From contig JPGV01000006.1 in assembly GCA_000724175.1 (NCBI GenBank), positions 2,100 through 66,099 on the forward strand: DNA of 64,000 bases, written 5' to 3'. The notes under the pieces are model-generated. The model searched no databases. It saw nothing but the letters and a program-made list of their open reading frames with translations, and was not told where the DNA came from. Both the position numbers and the translations under genes were made by a program. The DNA comes from [Candidatus Thermochlorobacteriaceae] bacterium GBChlB. Lineage in GTDB: Bacteria; Bacteroidota; Chlorobiia; Chlorobiales; Thermochlorobacteraceae. This document shows positions 17,391-26,009 of this stretch, piece by piece (within the stretch, counting starts at the first letter, position 1; every line of letters begins with the position of its first letter).

Positions 17391-18815
17391 TCAATTCTCA
17401 TTTCTCACTCTTAGATGTTCCTTCATTGCTTCAAATGCTTCTTCCATTTTCATGCCCCGTGAGCCTTTGAAGAGTATCGCGTCTCCGCGAGAAGCAATTC
17501 CCTTCAAGGCATCAACGAGGTCGGCTTTTGTCGCAAAATGTGCTTTGGTTTCTTTCACTGTCGCTGCATTACTCGTGCGTTTGATTTCTGTTCCAAATGT
17601 CAAGAGCGCATCGAGCTTGAGCGTCGTGATAAATTCCCCTAACGCTTGATGTTCGCTCGCCGACGCTTTGCCAAGCTCAAGCATATCGCCTAAGACGGCG
17701 ATTTTTTTACCCGTGTTCTTCATATCCGCTAATGTTTGCAAGCCTGCCCGCATCGATTCTGGATTAGCGTTGTAGGTGTCGTTTATCAACATCACGCCGC
17801 CTGTTTCGCTGACCGACATCCGCTTGAGCGCAGGGTTGATTTCAAAATTTTCCAGCGCGTCTTTGATGCGTTCTGGCAAGACACCGAAGTTGTATCCGAC
17901 CGCCGCCGCCGCCAGCGCGTTATAGATATTGTGTCGCCCGCTCATTCGCAGTTGCACCTCGACCGCGCCAGTTCGCATAGTCAATCGAAATTTCACGCAG
18001 CCTTTGTCGTCCATCGAGAGTTCTTCTGCCTCGACATCGTGTCCCGCCGAAACACCCTGTATTGACGGGCGTTTAACGCCATAAAACTTTTTTTCTCCTG
18101 CTCGACTCGCTTGCTTCATCACTTGGTCGTCGTCGACATTGACCAGCACGCTGCCGCCAGTTTTGCCGAGCCACGCAAAGAGTTCGCCTTCCGCCTCGGC
18201 GACAGCGTCCTCGCTGTTGAAAAATTCTATATGCGCCTTGCCGATGTTGGTTATGAGTCCATGCGTCGGTTCAGCAATTGAGCAGAGTGTCGTCATTTCG
18301 CCCGCATGATTCATTCCCATTTCAATCACGGCGATTTCCGTTGTGCCTCGCAGACCAAACAGTGTCAGCGGCACGCCAATGTGATTGTTCAAATTGCCCT
18401 CGGTTGCAAGCACACTATATGTTGAGCGCAAGACCGCCGCCGTCATTTCCTTTGTGGTCGTCTTACCACTATTGCCGCCAATAGCGACAATTGGCACGGC
18501 GAATTTCCGTCGATACATGCGCGCAAGTTGTTGCAACGCTGAGAGCGTGTCTTCTGAAACGAGCATTCTTTTGTCAAAGAACGCCGCGCCGTGTTTCTCG
18601 AACCAGAGGTGATTTACAACTGCCAACTGTGCGCCGTTCTCGAAGGCTGATTTCACAAACTCATGCCCATCGTTTTTTTCGCCGCGCAGCGCGACAAATA
18701 CATCGCCGTGTTTGATTGAGCGCGAATCAATCGAGACCGTCGGATTCTCGATGCCTGAAAAGCCTTGTCCGACAAGCCTTCCCAGCGACTCAACATCGGC
18801 GCGTTCCAATTTCAT
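17391..18815 (-). CDS. murF: UDP-MurNAc-tripeptide--D-Ala-D-Ala ligase
   Basis: Cytoplasmic ligase adding D-Ala-D-Ala to complete the pentapeptide. It has 474 residues. AIGGNSGKTTTKEMTAAVL (about 111-129) is the ATP loop, GNLNNHIGVPLTLFGL follows, and MLINDTYNANPESMRAGL (about 335) is the MurF signature. Its ATG overlaps the murE stop as ATGA. The last few codons fall in an AATGAGAA-like low-complexity tract. Confidence 0.96.
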   Translation of the reverse strand: MKLERADVESLGRLVGQGFSGIENPTVSIDSRSIKHGDVFVALRGEKNDGHEFVKSAFENGAQLAVVNHLWFEKHGAAFFDKRMLVSEDTLSALQQLARMYRRKFAVPIVAIGGNSGKTTTKEMTAAVLRSTYSVLATEGNLNNHIGVPLTLFGLRGTTEIAVIEMGMNHAGEMTTLCSIAEPTHGLITNIGKAHIEFFNSEDAVAEAEGELFAWLGKTGGSVLVNVDDDQVMKQASRAGEKKFYGVKRPSIQGVSAGHDVEAEELSMDDKGCVKFRLTMRTGAVEVQLRMSGRHNIYNALAAAAVGYNFGVLPERIKDALENFEINPALKRMSVSETGGVMLINDTYNANPESMRAGLQTLADMKNTGKKIAVLGDMLELGKASASEHQALGEFITTLKLDALLTFGTEIKRTSNAATVKETKAHFATKADLVDALKGIASRGDAILFKGSRGMKMEEAFEAMKEHLRVRNEN

Positions 18816-20323
18816 AGCGTTTTTGCTTGCTCTCGAAAAATTTTCTCAATGACTTCACGGTCGTCGAAGTGATGTTTCACTCCGTCAATTTCCTGATAGG
18901 TTTCGTGTCCTTTGCCTGCAACAAGCAGCACATCGCCTTGTTCAATCAACTCAATGCCTTTCCTAATGGCTGCGGCTCTGTTCTCGATTCGATACATTGG
19001 TTTGTTTTTTTTCATGCCCGCCTCGATGTCGTTCAAAATCATTTCAGGATGTTCGCTGCGCGGATTGTCCGACGTGAGAATCACCACATCGGCGTTCTCT
19101 TCTGCAACTTGTCCCATCATTGGACGCTTGCCTTTATCGCGGTCGCCGCCACACCCAAACGCCACGACCAGTTTTCCTTCCTTTGGCATAATCTCGCGCA
19201 CCGCGCGCATCACGTTGAGCAAGGCGTCAGGCGAATGCGCGTAATCGACAATTGCACATCGGTGATCGCTGGACCAAATTTGTTCCATTCTGCCGCGCAC
19301 GAGGTCGCATTTTGCCAGCCCGCGCACCACATCGGTGTCCGACAAATTCAATGCTCTGCCGACGCTATATGCCGCCAGCACGTTGTAGAGATTGAACTTG
19401 CCGATGTGCCGAAACGCATGCGTATGAAGCTCGTCTTTGTATTGTATTGACGCTGTTGTTCCGCTTAATTGATAGCTCATCGCCGTTGCCTGCACGTCCG
19501 CCAACGCTTGTCTTTTCAAGCCTTTTGAGCCATCGATATTTTCTGAGACGCTGTATGTCATCGTTTTTGCCTTCGTGTCTGAAACGATACGACTGCCGTA
19601 ATCGTCATCAATGTTGGTAATGGCAACCGCATCGGCGCTCAATCTGTCGAAGAGCAGTTTCTTGGCTTGAAAGTAGTTTTCCATCGTGCCGTGAAAGTCC
19701 AAGTGGTCGCGCGACAGGTTTGTGAAGACGGCGACGTCAAATCGAAGCCCGTCCGTGCGATGCAGCGCAAGCGAGTGCGACGAGACTTCCATCACTGCCG
19801 CCGCGCAATTTGATTTTGTCATTTTGTCAAAGAACTGATGCAGCTCTAAGGCTTCGGGCGTTGTGCGTTCTGCCTCGATAATTTCGTCTCCAAGGTGATG
19901 GGCAATCGTGCCGATAAGTCCCGTCTTGATGCCGTTGGCTTCGAGCATCGACTTGATGAGCAGCGTCGTCGTCGTCTTGCCGTTAGTTCCCGTTACGCCG
20001 ATGAGTTTGAGCTTGTCGCTTGCATTGCCGTAAAATGCCTTTGAGAGTTGTGATAGCGCGATGCGCGTATTCGGCACTTTGATGAACGCCGCAGTCGAAG
20101 TCAACCCGTTAGGAATTTCCTCGCACACAATCGCCGCCGCTTTCTGCGACAATGCGTTTTCAATGAACGAATGTCCGTCGACCTTAAATCCGCGCAGTGC
20201 CACGAAGAGCGAGCCATCCTTGACCACACGTGAGTCGTATGCAATCGAGGAAATCTCAACGTCCTGAGTTGTGTCTTGTCGCTCGATTGGCGCAATTGAT
20301 TTAATCAACTCACTTAGCTGCAT
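18812..20323 (-). CDS. murE: UDP-MurNAc-dipeptide--meso-DAP ligase MurE
   Basis: Cytoplasmic ligase adding the third residue of the stem peptide. It has 503 residues. [15 protein letters not shown] (about 109-123) is the ATP loop; EVSSHSLALHR and FTNLSRDHLDFHGTMENYFQAKKLLF include the carbamylated Lys region. The motif SDNPRSEHP (about 420) is the DNPR signature associated with meso-diaminopimelate as substrate, so the peptidoglycan is predicted to be of DAP type. It starts 13 bases after ftsI ends and overlaps murF. Confidence 0.97.
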   Translation of the reverse strand: MQLSELIKSIAPIERQDTTQDVEISSIAYDSRVVKDGSLFVALRGFKVDGHSFIENALSQKAAAIVCEEIPNGLTSTAAFIKVPNTRIALSQLSKAFYGNASDKLKLIGVTGTNGKTTTTLLIKSMLEANGIKTGLIGTIAHHLGDEIIEAERTTPEALELHQFFDKMTKSNCAAAVMEVSSHSLALHRTDGLRFDVAVFTNLSRDHLDFHGTMENYFQAKKLLFDRLSADAVAITNIDDDYGSRIVSDTKAKTMTYSVSENIDGSKGLKRQALADVQATAMSYQLSGTTASIQYKDELHTHAFRHIGKFNLYNVLAAYSVGRALNLSDTDVVRGLAKCDLVRGRMEQIWSSDHRCAIVDYAHSPDALLNVMRAVREIMPKEGKLVVAFGCGGDRDKGKRPMMGQVAEENADVVILTSDNPRSEHPEMILNDIEAGMKKNKPMYRIENRAAAIRKGIELIEQGDVLLVAGKGHETYQEIDGVKHHFDDREVIEKIFREQAKTL

Positions 20324-20336
20324 CGCCTTGATGGAT

Positions 20337-22511
20337 TTAATTACTCAGCGTCAAGCTGCACGATTCGCCTTGTTTAATCGGTTCGCCTGCTTTCGGCGAT
20401 TGCGCAATCACTTTGCCGCTTTTGCCCAGCAATTGAACGTTCAATCCCAAATTCGCCGCTGCAAAAATGGCGCGGTCGCCGCGTAGCCCCGTCAACAGTG
20501 GCATTTTCGGCGGTTTTGTAGTCTCGATGGACGCACTTTCTGTTGCGCCTGCCTCTGAAAATCTCAACAACGGTTTCGACCAAACTGCAACGCGCTTGCC
20601 AGCCTCGATGCTTTGCCAAACCACGACCTGCTCTTTTGCATCAACCAAGTTGTTCTCGCGCCCGAAGTCGAGCTTATGCAAGCGCAACAAAGCTTTTGCT
20701 TCATCTGCGGTTAAGCCCGTAACGCTTGGCATCACGACGGTTTGCACCGTATCCAAAAATTGCTGTTCGGGAGATGGCTTGCTTGCGCGGGTAAATCGAG
20801 CGCGGTATGTCTCGCCAAGTGTTGCAAGCATTCGGCTGCCGATACCAGAAAAAACAGGCGCCGCCGCCATGCTACCGTAGTAGCCATTGGTCGGATTAAT
20901 CATCATCACGAGCATTGCAATCTCCGGCTGTTCGCTTGGAAAAAACCCGACAAACGATGCTACATATCGACCGCTTTTGTAACTGCCTCCTGTGAAGAGT
21001 TGCGCCGTCCCAGTTTTGCCGCCGACCGAAACGCCCTCGATTCGCGCTGATGTGCCAGTGCCGCTATCCACAACTGCCTTGAAGTAAGCCCGCACCTGCT
21101 TGGCTGTTTCGCGCCTCATTGCTTGACGCGCTACTTTTGGCGCATTCTCGCGCAATACCTCTCCTGTTGGCGAGGTTATTTTTCGAATAACAAACGGTCG
21201 CATATATGCGCCATCGTTGGCGAGCGCAGCGTAAGCGCATAACAGTTGAAGCGGCGTTACAAGCACTTCATAGCCGTGCGCCATCCACGGCAGCGAAATC
21301 GCCGACCATGACGCTGTCGGTTTCACATTGCCGGAAATTTCTCCTAACACATCAACGCCCGTCTTCTCGCCGAATCCAAACGCTTTCATTTGCTCGTAAA
21401 ACTTTTCCCTTCCAATTTTCACACCGACTTTTGCGGCGACCACATTGCTCGAGTGAGCGACGGCTTGCGTAAATGTTACCATTCCCAATTTTTTGTGGTC
21501 GGTAATCACGCGGTCTCTGATTCGATACCGTCCGTTCTCAGCATATATTTTATCGTTTGGTTTTATGAGACCAAGATCCGTCGCTGCTGTCGCCATGACG
21601 AGCTTAAAGGTCGACCCCGGCTCGAAAGCGTCTGTAACTGCACGGTTTCTGACGGCGTCGGCACTGAACGACGCTTTATCGTTCATATCGAAATCGGGCG
21701 CATTTGCCATTGCCAAAATCTCTCCTGTGCGCGCGCTCATTGCGATTGCGATTCCTGCGCTCGACCCTGAGCGTTCAATGCCTTTTTGTAATTCGTCCTC
21801 GACTAAGGCTTGCACATCGGCATCCAGCGTGAGTTCGACATTGTTGCCATGTGTCGCCTCTTCGCTTGCCGCCCCGACAGCAGGAAATGATTTCCCGGTT
21901 GCGGTGCGCTGCATCATCATGAATCCGTCGCGCCCGCGCAGGTCTTTGTCGAGCATTTTCTCTAACCCGCTAATCCCGTTGCCGTCTGCGTCTGTAAATC
22001 CAATGACTTGTGCTGCCAGATTTTCATACTGCCGATGCACATCTTTCGTCGCAATCAATCCCGCGAAGTCCGCCTCAATGATTGGCTTTGCAATCGACTG
22101 CGGCACGTTGCGTTCTAACCACACAAACCGCGTTTTTTCTTTGAGCTTGTTTTGATAGTGCGCTTTCGGTTTTCCAAAGGCTTTGGCAAATGTTGTCGCC
22201 AAGACATCTGCATCTTCCACCATTTTTGGGTCGGCGGCAAACGAGACAACAGTAATGCTCGTCGCTAATCGTTTTCCGTTTCGGTCGAGAATATCGCCGC
22301 GATGCGCCTTGACGGGCAATTTGTATTCATACTGCCGCTCGGCACGCTTGCGGTATTCCGCAGCGTCAAGGATTTGAACGAATGCAAGTTTTACAACGAT
22401 ACCTGCCGCCAGCAACAGCAAGCCTGCTGCAACGATTGCCGCACGGAGTTTTTCCTCGCTCAGTCGCGCCTGCAACTTTTCCTGTTTTTTTGCTTCGCGA
22501 AATTCTTCCAT
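20337..22511 (-). CDS. ftsI: septal penicillin-binding protein FtsI with PASTA repeats
   Basis: Class B penicillin-binding protein that crosslinks septal peptidoglycan with FtsW. It has 724 residues. A membrane anchor lies at about 27-48, a dimerisation domain follows, then the transpeptidase with EPGSTFKLVMA (SxxK catalytic Ser, about 295), AHSSNVVAAKVG (SxN) and VGGKTGTAQLF (KTG). Two PASTA domains end the protein: MPSVTGLTADEAKALL (about 590) and MPLLTGLRGDRAIFAAANLG (about 660). It sits between ftsL and murE. Confidence 0.96.
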   Translation of the reverse strand: MEEFREAKKQEKLQARLSEEKLRAAIVAAGLLLLAAGIVVKLAFVQILDAAEYRKRAERQYEYKLPVKAHRGDILDRNGKRLATSITVVSFAADPKMVEDADVLATTFAKAFGKPKAHYQNKLKEKTRFVWLERNVPQSIAKPIIEADFAGLIATKDVHRQYENLAAQVIGFTDADGNGISGLEKMLDKDLRGRDGFMMMQRTATGKSFPAVGAASEEATHGNNVELTLDADVQALVEDELQKGIERSGSSAGIAIAMSARTGEILAMANAPDFDMNDKASFSADAVRNRAVTDAFEPGSTFKLVMATAATDLGLIKPNDKIYAENGRYRIRDRVITDHKKLGMVTFTQAVAHSSNVVAAKVGVKIGREKFYEQMKAFGFGEKTGVDVLGEISGNVKPTASWSAISLPWMAHGYEVLVTPLQLLCAYAALANDGAYMRPFVIRKITSPTGEVLRENAPKVARQAMRRETAKQVRAYFKAVVDSGTGTSARIEGVSVGGKTGTAQLFTGGSYKSGRYVASFVGFFPSEQPEIAMLVMMINPTNGYYGSMAAAPVFSGIGSRMLATLGETYRARFTRASKPSPEQQFLDTVQTVVMPSVTGLTADEAKALLRLHKLDFGRENNLVDAKEQVVVWQSIEAGKRVAVWSKPLLRFSEAGATESASIETTKPPKMPLLTGLRGDRAIFAAANLGLNVQLLGKSGKVIAQSPKAGEPIKQGESCSLTLSN

Positions 22512-22531
22512 TGTTTACCAAACGCTCAGAT

Positions 22532-23020
22532 TCACTTCTCTAACTTCAACTCAACGGGAGGCTCGGTTTTGTAACGCAGCCCAAGTTTTTCGTAAGCCGC
22601 GCCCGTAACCTGCTCGACGCGCTGTAATGATTTCAATTTGCTTTCCAACTCGACATTCAGGCTTCGCGCGTCCTCGATTTGCTTTTTCAGCACTTCCGAT
22701 TCGCCCGCCAAGCGATTGATGGTAATGACGTTATAGATATAGAACGCTAAAAGCACCGTCGCGCCTGCCACGGCCAAAAACGTTCGCGCGTTTAAAATCG
22801 ACTCCATTTTCTCCTGCGCTTTCTCGCGGAATTTTTTTTCTTTCGGGGCACTGTAAGCAGTTGCCGTATCAGGTGGCGGCTGCACGCCAGCGCGTTTTTC
22901 TTCCACGAACTCAACATCTGGTTCAAGCGGCTTTGGATTGGGCGTATTGAAGACCGGCGTTTCGGCAAACGCTGTGCGCGGCGTGTAACTTCCAAAAATG
23001 TTTTCTTGATAAGCGTTCAT
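22532..23020 (-). CDS. ftsL: FtsL-like bitopic division protein
   Basis: 162 residues: a hydrophilic Pro-rich N-terminus (about 1-75), a single membrane helix (about 80-100, FLAVAGATVLLAFYIYNVI) and a periplasmic coiled coil (ESEVLKKQIEDARSLNVELESKLKSLQRV). This is the FtsL layout; sequence identity in the family is too low to recognise otherwise. It lies between rsmH and ftsI, where ftsL is expected. The N-terminal cytoplasmic part is longer than in E. coli FtsL. Confidence 0.75.
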   Translation of the reverse strand: MNAYQENIFGSYTPRTAFAETPVFNTPNPKPLEPDVEFVEEKRAGVQPPPDTATAYSAPKEKKFREKAQEKMESILNARTFLAVAGATVLLAFYIYNVITINRLAGESEVLKKQIEDARSLNVELESKLKSLQRVEQVTGAAYEKLGLRYKTEPPVELKLEK

Positions 23021-23050
23021 CGTTTTCTCCTTTGACTTATTTTATGTGCT

Positions 23051-24076
23051 TCAAATTTTTTCCGCTGCCCTTAGTTTTGCGCTTCGTGCGCGCGAGTTTC
23101 GCTCGATTTCTTCATCGCTCGGTTCAACTGGCTTTTTTGTCAGCATTTTCATCGTCGCCTTGCGAAGCGGCACTTGAATCGGCACGCCTTTCGCTCCCCA
23201 GTCGTCGGCAGACATCTGGCGTAAAAAATCTTTCACGATTCTGTCTTCCAGCGAGTGATAACTAATCACCACCAATCGCCCGCCGCTCTCCAACAAATCG
23301 TGCGCCTCGGTTAAGCATCGCTTCAATGCATCAAGTTCTTGATTAACCTCAATGCGTATTGCCTGAAAAATTCGCGCAAGCGTCTTTGTCTGCTCCACTC
23401 TCGGCGTCGCACGCTTTACCACATCTGCTAACTTGTCCGTCGTCTCAATCGGCTTGATTTGACGCGCTTCGACGAGCCGTTTGGCGATTGTGCGTGAGCG
23501 CTTTTCTTCGCCATACTCAAAAAAAATTTTCGCCAACTTCGCTTCGTCATACTCATTGACGACGTCTTTCGCAGTGAGCGCGCTGCGCTGCGACATTCGC
23601 ATATCGAGCGTCGCCGCTTTTTGAAAACTGAACCCGCGACTTGCTTCATCGAGTTGATGCGATGAGACGCCCAAATCGAGCAATACACCTTTGAGCTTCG
23701 GCGCGGTGTCGGTTTGCAACGCTGCCTTTACGCACTGCGTCAGGTTTCCAAAGTTGCCCTCAATGGCACGGAACGGCGTAGCATTTAATGCTGAGAGACG
23801 TTTTGTCGCCGCTGCAAGTGCCACTTGGTCTTGGTCAATTCCAATCACAAGAGATTGTGGCTCTCTCAAAGAACGCTTGTTTTCTCGCTGCGCCTGTTCA
23901 AGCAACGCTTGTTCTTTTTCGGCAAGCGCTCGTTCTTTTTCCGCAAGCGTCAAGGAAATTTTCTCGCTGTGTCCGCCGCCGCCCAGCGTGCCGTCCACAT
24001 AGATTCCCGCGCCTGTTACCAGATATTCTATAACCTCATTGAGCAACACTGGCGCATGGAAAAACTCGCTCGCCAT
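23051..24076 (-). CDS. rsmH: 16S rRNA (cytosine-1402-N4)-methyltransferase
   Basis: SAM-dependent enzyme that N4-methylates C1402 of 16S rRNA in the ribosomal P site; formerly mraW. It has 341 residues. HAPVLLNEVIEYL is the standard start, YVDGTLGGGGHSEKI (about 27-41) the SAM motif, and LLDLGVSSHQLDEASRGFSF a family signature. VISYHSLEDRIVKDFLR follows near residue 270. One oddity is a charged insert of about 30 residues (about 44-72, including AEKERALAEKEQALLEQ), after the SAM motif and before GIDQDQVAL, where most RsmH proteins have a short loop. Confidence 0.96.
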   Translation of the reverse strand: MASEFFHAPVLLNEVIEYLVTGAGIYVDGTLGGGGHSEKISLTLAEKERALAEKEQALLEQAQRENKRSLREPQSLVIGIDQDQVALAAATKRLSALNATPFRAIEGNFGNLTQCVKAALQTDTAPKLKGVLLDLGVSSHQLDEASRGFSFQKAATLDMRMSQRSALTAKDVVNEYDEAKLAKIFFEYGEEKRSRTIAKRLVEARQIKPIETTDKLADVVKRATPRVEQTKTLARIFQAIRIEVNQELDALKRCLTEAHDLLESGGRLVVISYHSLEDRIVKDFLRQMSADDWGAKGVPIQVPLRKATMKMLTKKPVEPSDEEIERNSRARSAKLRAAEKI

Positions 24077-24108: not shown

Positions 24109-24552
24109 TTATCCCAAAATTTTCTGCGTCAGCGTTTCATATTCCGTCGGCGCGATGTTCAATGCTTGCTTCAACTTTTCCGGATTCCAGAGCGAGAGCT
24201 TGTTGCCTTCGCCGATGATGATGACTTGCTTTGTTATCTCGCACGCCTCCAAGAATTCCTTTGGCAACGCCACTCGGCCTTGCTTGTCCAACTCTGCTTC
24301 GTCCAAATTGGCGTTGATGAATGTCTTTAATTTTTTCTCCTCAGGATTGAAGTCCGAGAGCTGCGCCAGTTTGCGTTGCAGTTCTTTCCACGCCGATTCT
24401 TCATACATCTCAATCGAATCTGACATCGTTTTCATTAGGATAAAAACTGCGCCCGCGTCTTGATTTTCCAATTTCTTGCGAAACTTCACTGGAATCATCA
24501 GCCGACCTTTGTCGTCCAACGAATGCAATTCTTTGCCGATGAATCCTGCCAT
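24109..24552 (-). CDS. mraZ: transcriptional regulator MraZ
   Basis: Two-repeat AbrB-like DNA-binding protein that controls the dcw operon in bacteria studied so far. It has 147 residues. The paired DxxGR motifs are LDDKGRLMIPVKFR (about 12-25) and LDKQGRVALPKEFLE (about 88-102), one per repeat. It is the first gene of the cluster, 32 bases before rsmH. Three 10-bp-spaced repeats in its leader (24591-24614) look like its own operator. Confidence 0.96.
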   Translation of the reverse strand: MAGFIGKELHSLDDKGRLMIPVKFRKKLENQDAGAVFILMKTMSDSIEMYEESAWKELQRKLAQLSDFNPEEKKLKTFINANLDEAELDKQGRVALPKEFLEACEITKQVIIIGEGNKLSLWNPEKLKQALNIAPTEYETLTQKILG

Positions 24553-24590: not shown

Positions 24591-24614
24591 CCCGTTTTTA
24601 CCATTTTTTACCAC
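24591..24614 (-). promoter_or_regulatory. MraZ-type operator repeats
   Basis: On the minus strand GTGGT, ATGGT and CGGGA occur in the same orientation, each separated by AAAAA, so the period is exactly 10 bp. E. coli MraZ binds direct TGGGN repeats separated by 5 bases, so both spacing and core fit. The repeats start just downstream of the proposed -10 box, where bound MraZ would block transcription of the dcw operon. Confidence 0.65.
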
Positions 24615-24621
24615 AATGGCA

Positions 24622-24650
24622 ATTTAGTTAAAAAAAAATGGATTTGTCAA
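24622..24650 (-). promoter_or_regulatory. dcw operon promoter
   Basis: On the minus strand TTGACA (24650-24645) is followed after 17 bases by CTAAAT (24627-24622). The start of transcription would fall near 24615, within the MraZ repeats and about 60 bases before the mraZ ATG. This is a classical sigma-70-like spacing rather than the TTTG/TAnnTTTG type seen elsewhere in the window. Confidence 0.55.
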
Positions 24651-24739: not shown

Positions 24740-24797
24740 AATATGAACAAAATGTTCAGTATCTAAAACTTGAATATGAACAAAGTGTTCAGTATCT
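24740..24797 (+). promoter_or_regulatory. tandem LexA-type operators
   Basis: Two 25-bp direct repeats (24740-24764 and 24773-24797) differ at one base and begin 33 bp apart, about three helical turns. Each contains an inverted repeat: GAACAAAATGTTC (24745-24757) and GAACAAAGTGTTC (24778-24790). GAAC-N5-GTTC is close to the Gram-positive SOS box GAAC-N4-GTTC. They lie directly upstream of the lexA-like gene, so autoregulation is the obvious reading. Confidence 0.75.
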
Positions 24798-24798
24798 T
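24770..24798 (+). promoter_or_regulatory. candidate lexA promoter
   Basis: TTGAAT (24770-24775), 17 bases, then TATCTT (24793-24798). The second operator fills the spacer between the boxes, the classical arrangement for repression. Transcription would start near 24805, giving a leader of about 60 bases to the ATG at 24868. Confidence 0.4.
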
Positions 24799-24867: not shown

Positions 24868-25521
24868 ATGGGGGCAGTTCTGACGGAGGCACAAAATAAG
24901 TGCTTCAATTTTTTGGCGCGCTACGAGGCGGAGTTTCGTCGCTCGCCCAGCGTGCGTGAAATCGCCGCGGCACTGGGCTATCGCTCCACCAATGCGGTCG
25001 CACAAGTTTTGGACGCCCTCGAAGCAAAAGCGTATATCAAGCGACGCAAAGGCATGCGCGGCATAGACATCGTTCACCGTGATGAGTTCGCGCCACTCGT
25101 TGGTTCAGGGCAAGAGCGGCTTGTCGCTGTTCCCGTTATGCAGCTCGATATTTTTCAAAAGGGCGATAAGCCGCTTGTGCAACGCGGCATTTTATATTTC
25201 ACGCACTTCGAGACCGAAGGCAAAGACTGTTTTGCAATGCTGGCAGGCGATGACGGTATGGACAAATCAGGACTCTTGAAGGGCGACTTGGTTCTCGTCG
25301 AAAAACGTCCTATCGCTGAAACCGAAAAAGGCGTTCTCGTCGGCGTCTCCGATGGCGAGTCCCTCATTGTGCGAGAACATCGATTCGTTAATGGGCGCGT
25401 GAATCTTCTGGCGTCAAACCGCTCTTATGTGGAAAAGGTCATCAAGCCCGATGAAAAGACGAGCGTGAAAGTTCTCGGCGCAGTTATCCTCTCGATGCGC
25501 CGATACCGGAAAATTTCTTAA
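24868..25521 (+). CDS. lexA: LexA-like repressor lacking the autocleavage residues
   Basis: The N-terminus (about residues 5-68) is a clear LexA winged helix: RRSPSVREIAAALGYRSTNAVAQVLDALEAKAYIKRRKGMRGI. The C-terminal half follows the LexA/S24 peptidase pattern (LLKGDLVLVEKRP, NLLASNRSY, VLGAVILSMR). The key residues differ. The catalytic Ser expected in the GxSM motif is Gly130 (GDDGM), the catalytic Lys (VTVK in E. coli) is Arg169 (LIVRE), and the Ala-Gly cleavage site is replaced near IFQKGDKP (95-102). It should therefore bind DNA but not self-cleave. I chose the ATG at 24868; a GTG at 24805 is in frame but coincides with the predicted transcription start. Its stop lies 14 bases before a ydjM-like gene. 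Confidence 0.85.
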   Translation: MGAVLTEAQNKCFNFLARYEAEFRRSPSVREIAAALGYRSTNAVAQVLDALEAKAYIKRRKGMRGIDIVHRDEFAPLVGSGQERLVAVPVMQLDIFQKGDKPLVQRGILYFTHFETEGKDCFAMLAGDDGMDKSGLLKGDLVLVEKRPIAETEKGVLVGVSDGESLIVREHRFVNGRVNLLASNRSYVEKVIKPDEKTSVKVLGAVILSMRRYRKIS

Positions 25522-25535
25522 TCAATCAAAGAGCG

Positions 25536-26009
25536 ATGAGTTCATACAAGGGGCATTTGTTCGGCGGCGTGTTATTCTTTATTCCGTTTGCATTTCTCTA
25601 TGCCGTCTTGTTCGGCGATGGAAAATTGCCGCTTCTGCAATTCATCTTTCACACCGCAATTCTTTTCGGCATTACGTTGCTCTTTGCACTCTTTCCCGAC
25701 ATTGACACCAAAAGCAAAGGTCAAAAAATTTTCTATCTCATTTTCATCGCTGTCGACCTTGCGCTCATTTTTACAAACCATTTGCGCGAAGCAGCATTTC
25801 TTGGACTCTTTGCAATGTTGCCACTCATCAGCACCCATCGCGGCTGGACGCATTCGTTTTGGGCGGCGTTTGTCATTCCGCTTCCGTTTCTGCTGATACC
25901 AATGTGGCTCGCCGAATCCAAAACGCTCGTCGGCTTGCCATATTACCTTGCAGCTGTAACGGGCTACCTCAGCCACCGATTCATGGACGGCATTTTTTTT
26001 AGGAAATAA
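25536..26009 (+). CDS. YdjM-like inner-membrane putative metal-dependent hydrolase
   Basis: 157 residues with four to five hydrophobic segments. The motifs ALFPDIDTKSK (about 50-60), STHRGWTHSFWA (about 103-114, with RGxTHS) and GYLSHRFMDGIF at the end match the YdjM/DUF457 family of membrane-bound putative metal-dependent hydrolases. Pfam calls this family LexA-binding, and E. coli ydjM is a LexA-regulated SOS gene. Here the gene follows the lexA-like gene by 14 bases with an AAAGAG ribosome-binding stretch, so it is probably in the same operon. The reaction is unknown. Confidence 0.8.
   Translation: MSSYKGHLFGGVLFFIPFAFLYAVLFGDGKLPLLQFIFHTAILFGITLLFALFPDIDTKSKGQKIFYLIFIAVDLALIFTNHLREAAFLGLFAMLPLISTHRGWTHSFWAAFVIPLPFLLIPMWLAESKTLVGLPYYLAAVTGYLSHRFMDGIFFRK

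Follow-up and report, generated by a model that had tools for sequence, protein, structure and literature searches.

The lexA-like gene of [Candidatus Thermochlorobacteriaceae] bacterium GBChlB lies back to back with mraZ, the first gene of the division and cell-wall (dcw) cluster, and encodes a LexA homologue that the first-pass annotation had described as having lost its self-cleavage residues. MraZ, encoded at the start of this cluster, is itself a regulator of local action and in that respect is comparable, but its fold is unrelated to that of LexA, and here it is the divergent neighbour. To our knowledge, little is understood of how the dcw cluster is controlled upstream, except in a few model bacteria. 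We analyzed a window of 64,000 nucleotides from contig JPGV01000006.1 (assembly GCA_000724175.1), and its features are listed in Table 1.

Table 1. Features of the mraZ/lexA-like region, with positions counted from the first nucleotide of the window
Feature	Position	Strand	Remarks
rsmH, ftsL-like, ftsI (PBP with PASTA), murE	18812–24076	-	Remaining dcw genes in the window; murE from its translation
mraZ	24109–24552	-	Divergent neighbour, first dcw cluster gene; Pfam MraZ 3.2e-24, synteny
Direct repeats GTGGTAAAAAATGGTAAAAACGGG by the mraZ promoter	24591–24614	-	MraZ-box-like; from sequence
Likely mraZ promoter	24621–24650	-	TTGACA, 18 bp, TAAATT; consensus scan, 10/12
Operator 1 (predicted)	24740–24764		Core TGAACAAAATGTTCA at 24744–24758; conserved upstream of 9 orthologues
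Likely promoter of the lexA-like gene	24770–24798	+	TTGAAT (24770–24775), 17 bp, TATCTT (24793–24798); inferred, by eye
Operator 2 (predicted)	24773–24797		Core TGAACAAAGTGTTCA at 24777–24791; 33 bp from operator 1; conserved, 9 orthologues
lexA-like gene	24868–25521	+	217 aa; LexA winged helix and inactive S24 (LexA C-terminal) domain
Codons Asp128-Asp129-Gly130	25249–25257	+	Gly130 at E. coli LexA Ser119; Asp128 at an otherwise invariant Gly
Codon Arg169	25372–25374	+	At the catalytic Lys156 position; invariant across the clade
YdjM-like membrane protein	25536–26009	+	Pfam YdjM 4.6e-10; 14 nt downstream of the lexA-like gene

The protein matched the Pfam families LexA_DNA_bind (1.9e-12) and Peptidase_S24 (2.6e-7), both past the cut-off, and a structure prediction, which had been proposed as a check, gave an AlphaFold2 model with a LexA fold (pLDDT 89.9) whose top PDB matches were all LexA. 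Domains, profile and predicted structure indicated that a winged helix and an S24 domain extend over the full length, placing the protein in the LexA family and confirming that its DNA-binding half is of the LexA type. The NCBIfam lexA profile TIGR00498 also matched over the full length, but at 66.8 bits against a cut-off of 110.95, so that the equivalog threshold was not reached. In an alignment that included LexA of E. coli and B. subtilis, Gly130 occupied the position of the catalytic Ser and Arg169 that of the catalytic Lys, and the hinge contained neither an Ala-Gly nor a Cys-Gly bond, so the protein had neither the catalytic dyad nor the scissile bond of a canonical self-cleaving LexA. 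The three losses claimed in the first-pass annotation were thus upheld, and with Ser, Lys and Ala-Gly all gone, the sequence predicts, as had been proposed, that self-cleavage should be impossible.

The state of the active site was then surveyed by a phylum-wide profile search and reading of the aligned residues. Its relatives at the family and order level included Candidatus Thermochlorobacter aerophilum, Thermochlorobacteriaceae, Chloroherpetonaceae SKYG21 and other Chlorobiales. Orthologues were found in eight further genomes (G001, G002, G004–G008 and G010), and the dead-site state was common to all nine close Chlorobiales orthologues, at 46–54% identity. A full-length profile match was absent from G003, the f2 genomes and the Chlorobiaceae-like f4 genomes, in which only weaker matches to the C-terminal domain were obtained; a scan for the LexA DNA-binding domain gave one match in the source genome (G000) and none in G003, G009 and G012. 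Asp128 and Arg169 were present in all 32 clade rows and Gly and Lys in all 12 canonical relatives, and the same split was repeated in 20 further proteins, six of them of the dead type. One group therefore carried Asp128 and Arg169 without Ala-Gly, and the other LexA-type group carried Gly, Ser, Lys and Ala-Gly. Because the Ser column of the dead clade varied (Gly or Ala, rarely Ser or Thr), the pair Asp128 and Arg169 is a better diagnostic than the replacement of Ser by Gly. In a maximum-likelihood tree, the dead type, including the protein of the window, formed a single clade (34 rows, support 100/99), which was counted in 40 genomes of 15 GTDB families, one broken copy being left out of the count. 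The dead LexA type is an ancient clade, not an oddity. Since the Gly-to-Asp and Lys-to-Arg changes are coupled, the alignment suggests that Asp128 and Arg169 form a structural salt bridge in place of the Ser-Lys dyad. The protein would most naturally be read as a regulator that RecA does not switch off.

The lexA-like gene was divergent from mraZ in 34 of the 40 genomes, with the mraZ start 224–536 bp away and rsmH, ftsL-like, ftsI and murE beyond it. The gene downstream varied: YdjM-like in the source genome, tyrosine-recombinase-like in g2, Ig-like lipoprotein-like in g3, and a gene on the opposite strand elsewhere. The lexA-like and YdjM-like genes are possibly co-transcribed, in the source genome only. 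In E. coli, ydjM is under LexA control; a lexA-ydjM operon of SOS type was not counted as evidence here because the downstream gene differs between genera. In g2 genomes a similar gene was found on the opposite strand at a distance of a few kb. The GTGGTAAAAAATGGTAAAAACGGG repeats, which resemble MraZ boxes, had similar counterparts in relatives.

Between the two divergent genes, two near-identical palindromes were found as predicted operators. A corresponding pair was present upstream in nine of nine Chlorobiales genomes, with the consensus TACTGAACAnnTGTTCAGTA, a 4- or 5-base centre and, where both members were measurable, a spacing of 33–34 bp. The Rhodothermia pair consisted of GGTGAAAANNTTTTCACC at about 31–33 bp in clear cases; this label presumes that G171 is Salinibacter ruber DSM 13855 and that G067 is Rhodothermus marinus DSM 4252. 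A spacing of 41–42 bp was seen in f24 and, at mraZ, in f48 and f55, so that spacings were near three or four helical turns; the pairs were weak or unclear in G379, G265 and G094. A gene divergent from mraZ with paired operators between the two was accordingly the arrangement of both the window and the clade. Operator 2 fills the 17-bp spacer between the -35 and -10 elements of the lexA-like gene's own likely promoter, which was absent from the list of the consensus scan, and the protein therefore very likely represses its own gene, as judged from the sequence. From these features and those described below, we consider the protein probably to be a dimeric repressor of the LexA family whose self-cleavage is permanently lost and whose present function lies at the mraZ/dcw locus. 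What was once an SOS switch seems to have become a permanent regulator of the division-cluster locus that cannot be cut.

An autorepressor with no other function, next to mraZ merely through inherited gene order and without effect on dcw, is an unlikely explanation, although it accounts for the overlap of operator 2 with the gene's own likely promoter, the lack of overlap of either operator with the mraZ promoter found by the consensus scan, and the position of the operators, which in most genomes are closer to the lexA-like gene than to mraZ. A repressor whose sole target is itself should not persist in 15 families, however, and in G379, G225, G342 and G010 the next gene is on the other strand and hence not co-transcribed with it. 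Genomes in which the gene has moved provided a natural experiment. The lexA-like gene was not beside mraZ in G205, G367, G187, G079, G343 and G287, and mraZ was located in five of these six. Using an operator matrix trained only on other genomes, with P estimated against 500 shuffles per test (which limits P), paired sites were detected upstream of mraZ in G367, G343 and G205 (P ~0.002 each) and in G187 (P 0.008). Paired operators were thus kept at mraZ in four of the five moved-gene genomes tested, G079 having no pair there. Upstream of the relocated gene, no significant site was found, save for a weak pair in G079 (P 0.02). The gene-less relatives G003, G011 and G014 had no pair at mraZ (P 0.42–0.85), and a fourth, G012, gave a borderline P of 0.034 and no clear pair.

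G367 and G205 each encode only one LexA-type protein, and there the gene upstream runs toward mraZ and ends before the operators; mraZ is therefore the only annotated gene that the operators can serve. In G343 and G187, mraZ has a different divergent neighbour, which could be an alternative target. Because a hairpin sits between the operators and mraZ in moved-gene genomes, the operators there might also control a short RNA. An identical 13-mer, AATAATTACAATA, was observed in G367, G343 and G205 (L282, L283 and L286), which belong to three families; it lies about 230–260 nt upstream of mraZ, between the operators and mraZ, and is followed by a stable hairpin, with which it might mark a short terminated RNA. 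The operators that stay at mraZ once the lexA-like gene has moved are the strongest evidence for the mraZ/dcw region as the target.

A second alternative, quite improbable in our assessment, is a broad regulator in the manner of LexA of Synechocystis sp. PCC 6803, acting on many metabolic or stress genes through weaker single sites. According to the portions of the published descriptions considered here (PMC7567884, PMC4759255), the serine and the cleavage bond are likewise missing from that protein, whose role lies outside the SOS response, so that a dead LexA as such is already known; it acts on many genes, whereas paired operators linked to mraZ are not described for it in those portions. 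The comparison relied on the published description, the tree being built without a cyanobacterial sequence. Weak sites do occur elsewhere, for example near nrdB in the source genome, but genome-wide pattern searches allowing up to two mismatches argued against a broad regulon. All matches with zero or one mismatch fell at the mraZ locus in 13 Chlorobiales and 12 Rhodothermia-type genomes, as did 19 of the 21 matches with up to two mismatches in the latter 12; weaker matches off the locus were mostly within ORFs, and other TGAACN5GTTCA palindromes in the source genome were almost all inside ORFs. The TGAACCTGTTGTTCA palindrome upstream of nrdB was rejected as a target site because it is not conserved in relatives. 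It precedes the likely start of nrdB by about 63 bp (L068, L073; G000:C26:546, C15:199675), and an nrdA-like gene ends just upstream of it. The cyanobacterial-style metabolic regulon suggested in the first-pass annotation was therefore not borne out, as strong operators were found only between the lexA-like gene and mraZ/dcw and none at recA. That annotation had mentioned neither the paired operators, nor the link with the division genes, nor the wide distribution of the clade.

It is very improbable that SOS control has been kept by an unusual route, whether through another nucleophile, Clp proteolysis or RecA binding without cleavage. The retained LexA fold would fit such a route, as would the operator core, which in some genomes equals GAAC-N4-GTTC, the known LexA box of Gram-positive bacteria. 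However, no operator was found upstream of recA in 12 genomes, so that LexA control of recA was rejected, and the pattern of an SOS regulator, with operators at recA and other SOS genes, was not observed, SOS genes other than recA being covered by pattern scans only. Ser134, whose placement in the active site had been named as the result that would overturn the loss of cleavage, was rejected as a substitute nucleophile: its column holds A, D, E, S, V or T in relatives and is Ala in four of nine Chlorobiales orthologues.

Sister genomes, moreover, keep a separate cleavable LexA. A protein with Ala-Gly, Ser and Lys was also present in the Rhodothermia-type genomes G171, G195, G084, G225, G389, G331 and G071; canonical LexA was located downstream of a recO-like gene in several genomes of this type and beside a DinB-like polymerase in G379, G265 and G091. 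It shares family and genomes with the dead type but is cleavable, forms a separate clade and is linked to DNA-repair genes. The presence of both types in the same genomes indicated that the dead type has not replaced canonical LexA but is a paralogue with a task of its own. The dead type alone was kept in Chlorobiales and in the five Rhodothermus-like genomes of g12, four of which were scanned for the LexA domain. G379 and G091 (L228, L229) also had a third, diverged S24 LexA-like protein with Ser and Lys present, adjoining what look like translesion-polymerase-type genes, and copies resembling the recO-side LexA in G237 and G342 (L222, L225) look altered in the peptidase region. The search for a second, intact LexA in the 3.05-Mb source genome, another check suggested at the outset, found none: there was one LexA-type match, the lexA-like protein itself, and two S24 matches. 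The other S24 match was a UmuD-like fragment of 55 aa (L040, G000:C27:53257-53388), apparently a broken gene. Finally, although catalytic residues have been lost, a decaying or accidental lexA copy has a practically negligible probability, and sequencing error is likewise excluded, because the dead state occurs in all nine close Chlorobiales orthologues, which are intact, with Asp128 and Arg169 invariant, operators conserved and a single ancient clade.

For a dedicated repressor of the mraZ/dcw locus, the following mechanism may be proposed. The protein would dimerize through its S24 domain, and the winged helix would still bind LexA-like palindromes, TGAAC-N4/5-GTTCA here and the corresponding sequence in Rhodothermia. 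Two dimers on paired sites about three or four helical turns apart would bind together between the lexA-like gene and mraZ. Occupation of operator 2 would repress the gene's own promoter, and the same bound complex, about 94 bp upstream of the mraZ -35 element, would most likely adjust mraZ/dcw transcription. Because of this distance from operator 1, a simple steric block of the mraZ promoter is unlikely, and the effect on mraZ may be action at a distance, activation or the use of a second upstream promoter. As RecA cannot cut the protein, release would have to come from a change in the amount of protein, from a ligand or a partner, or from a protease. A more elaborate version, which we put forward tentatively and rate slightly below an even chance, is that an ancient LexA duplicate became a dedicated RecA-blind dcw controller, its dead pocket locked by Asp128 and Arg169 and serving as a sensor or dimer lock, such that two LexAs would operate with opposite logic.

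Compared with canonical LexA (E. coli, B. subtilis and T. maritima; TIGR00498), the dead type shares the order of winged helix and S24 domain, the fold, and palindromic operators upstream of its own gene with a TGAAC...GTTCA core like the Gram-positive SOS box. It differs in having Asp128 and Arg169 instead of Ser, Lys and Ala-Gly, in scoring below the equivalog cut-off, in leaving recA without an operator and in having operators practically confined to the mraZ locus. The non-canonical LexA of Bacteroidetes (Sanchez-Osuna et al. 2021, PMC8565304) is likewise an S24 repressor from the same broad phylum, but it has a phage-CI-like DNA-binding domain with intact Ser, Lys and Ala-Gly and controls SOS genes; the dead type, with its LexA-type winged helix and dead site, does not belong to that group, and the text of that paper makes no mention of Chlorobi, Ignavibacteria, Rhodothermia or Salinibacter. 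The open-access literature, to which the search was confined, yielded no description of a dead LexA clade with a link to mraZ.

For the control of the dcw cluster, a named protein, precise predicted operators and a natural experiment thereby become available, and the lineages concerned include genomes of the Rhodothermus and Salinibacter types. The clade also represents a LexA paralogue whose peptidase activity was lost once and which was then retained as a regulator. An annotation as "LexA" in these genomes does not equal an SOS response, the source genome having a lexA-like gene and no cleavable one that we could find. If the proposal is true, some bacteria, such as Salinibacter-like ones, would hold two LexAs, one destroyed by DNA damage and one never.
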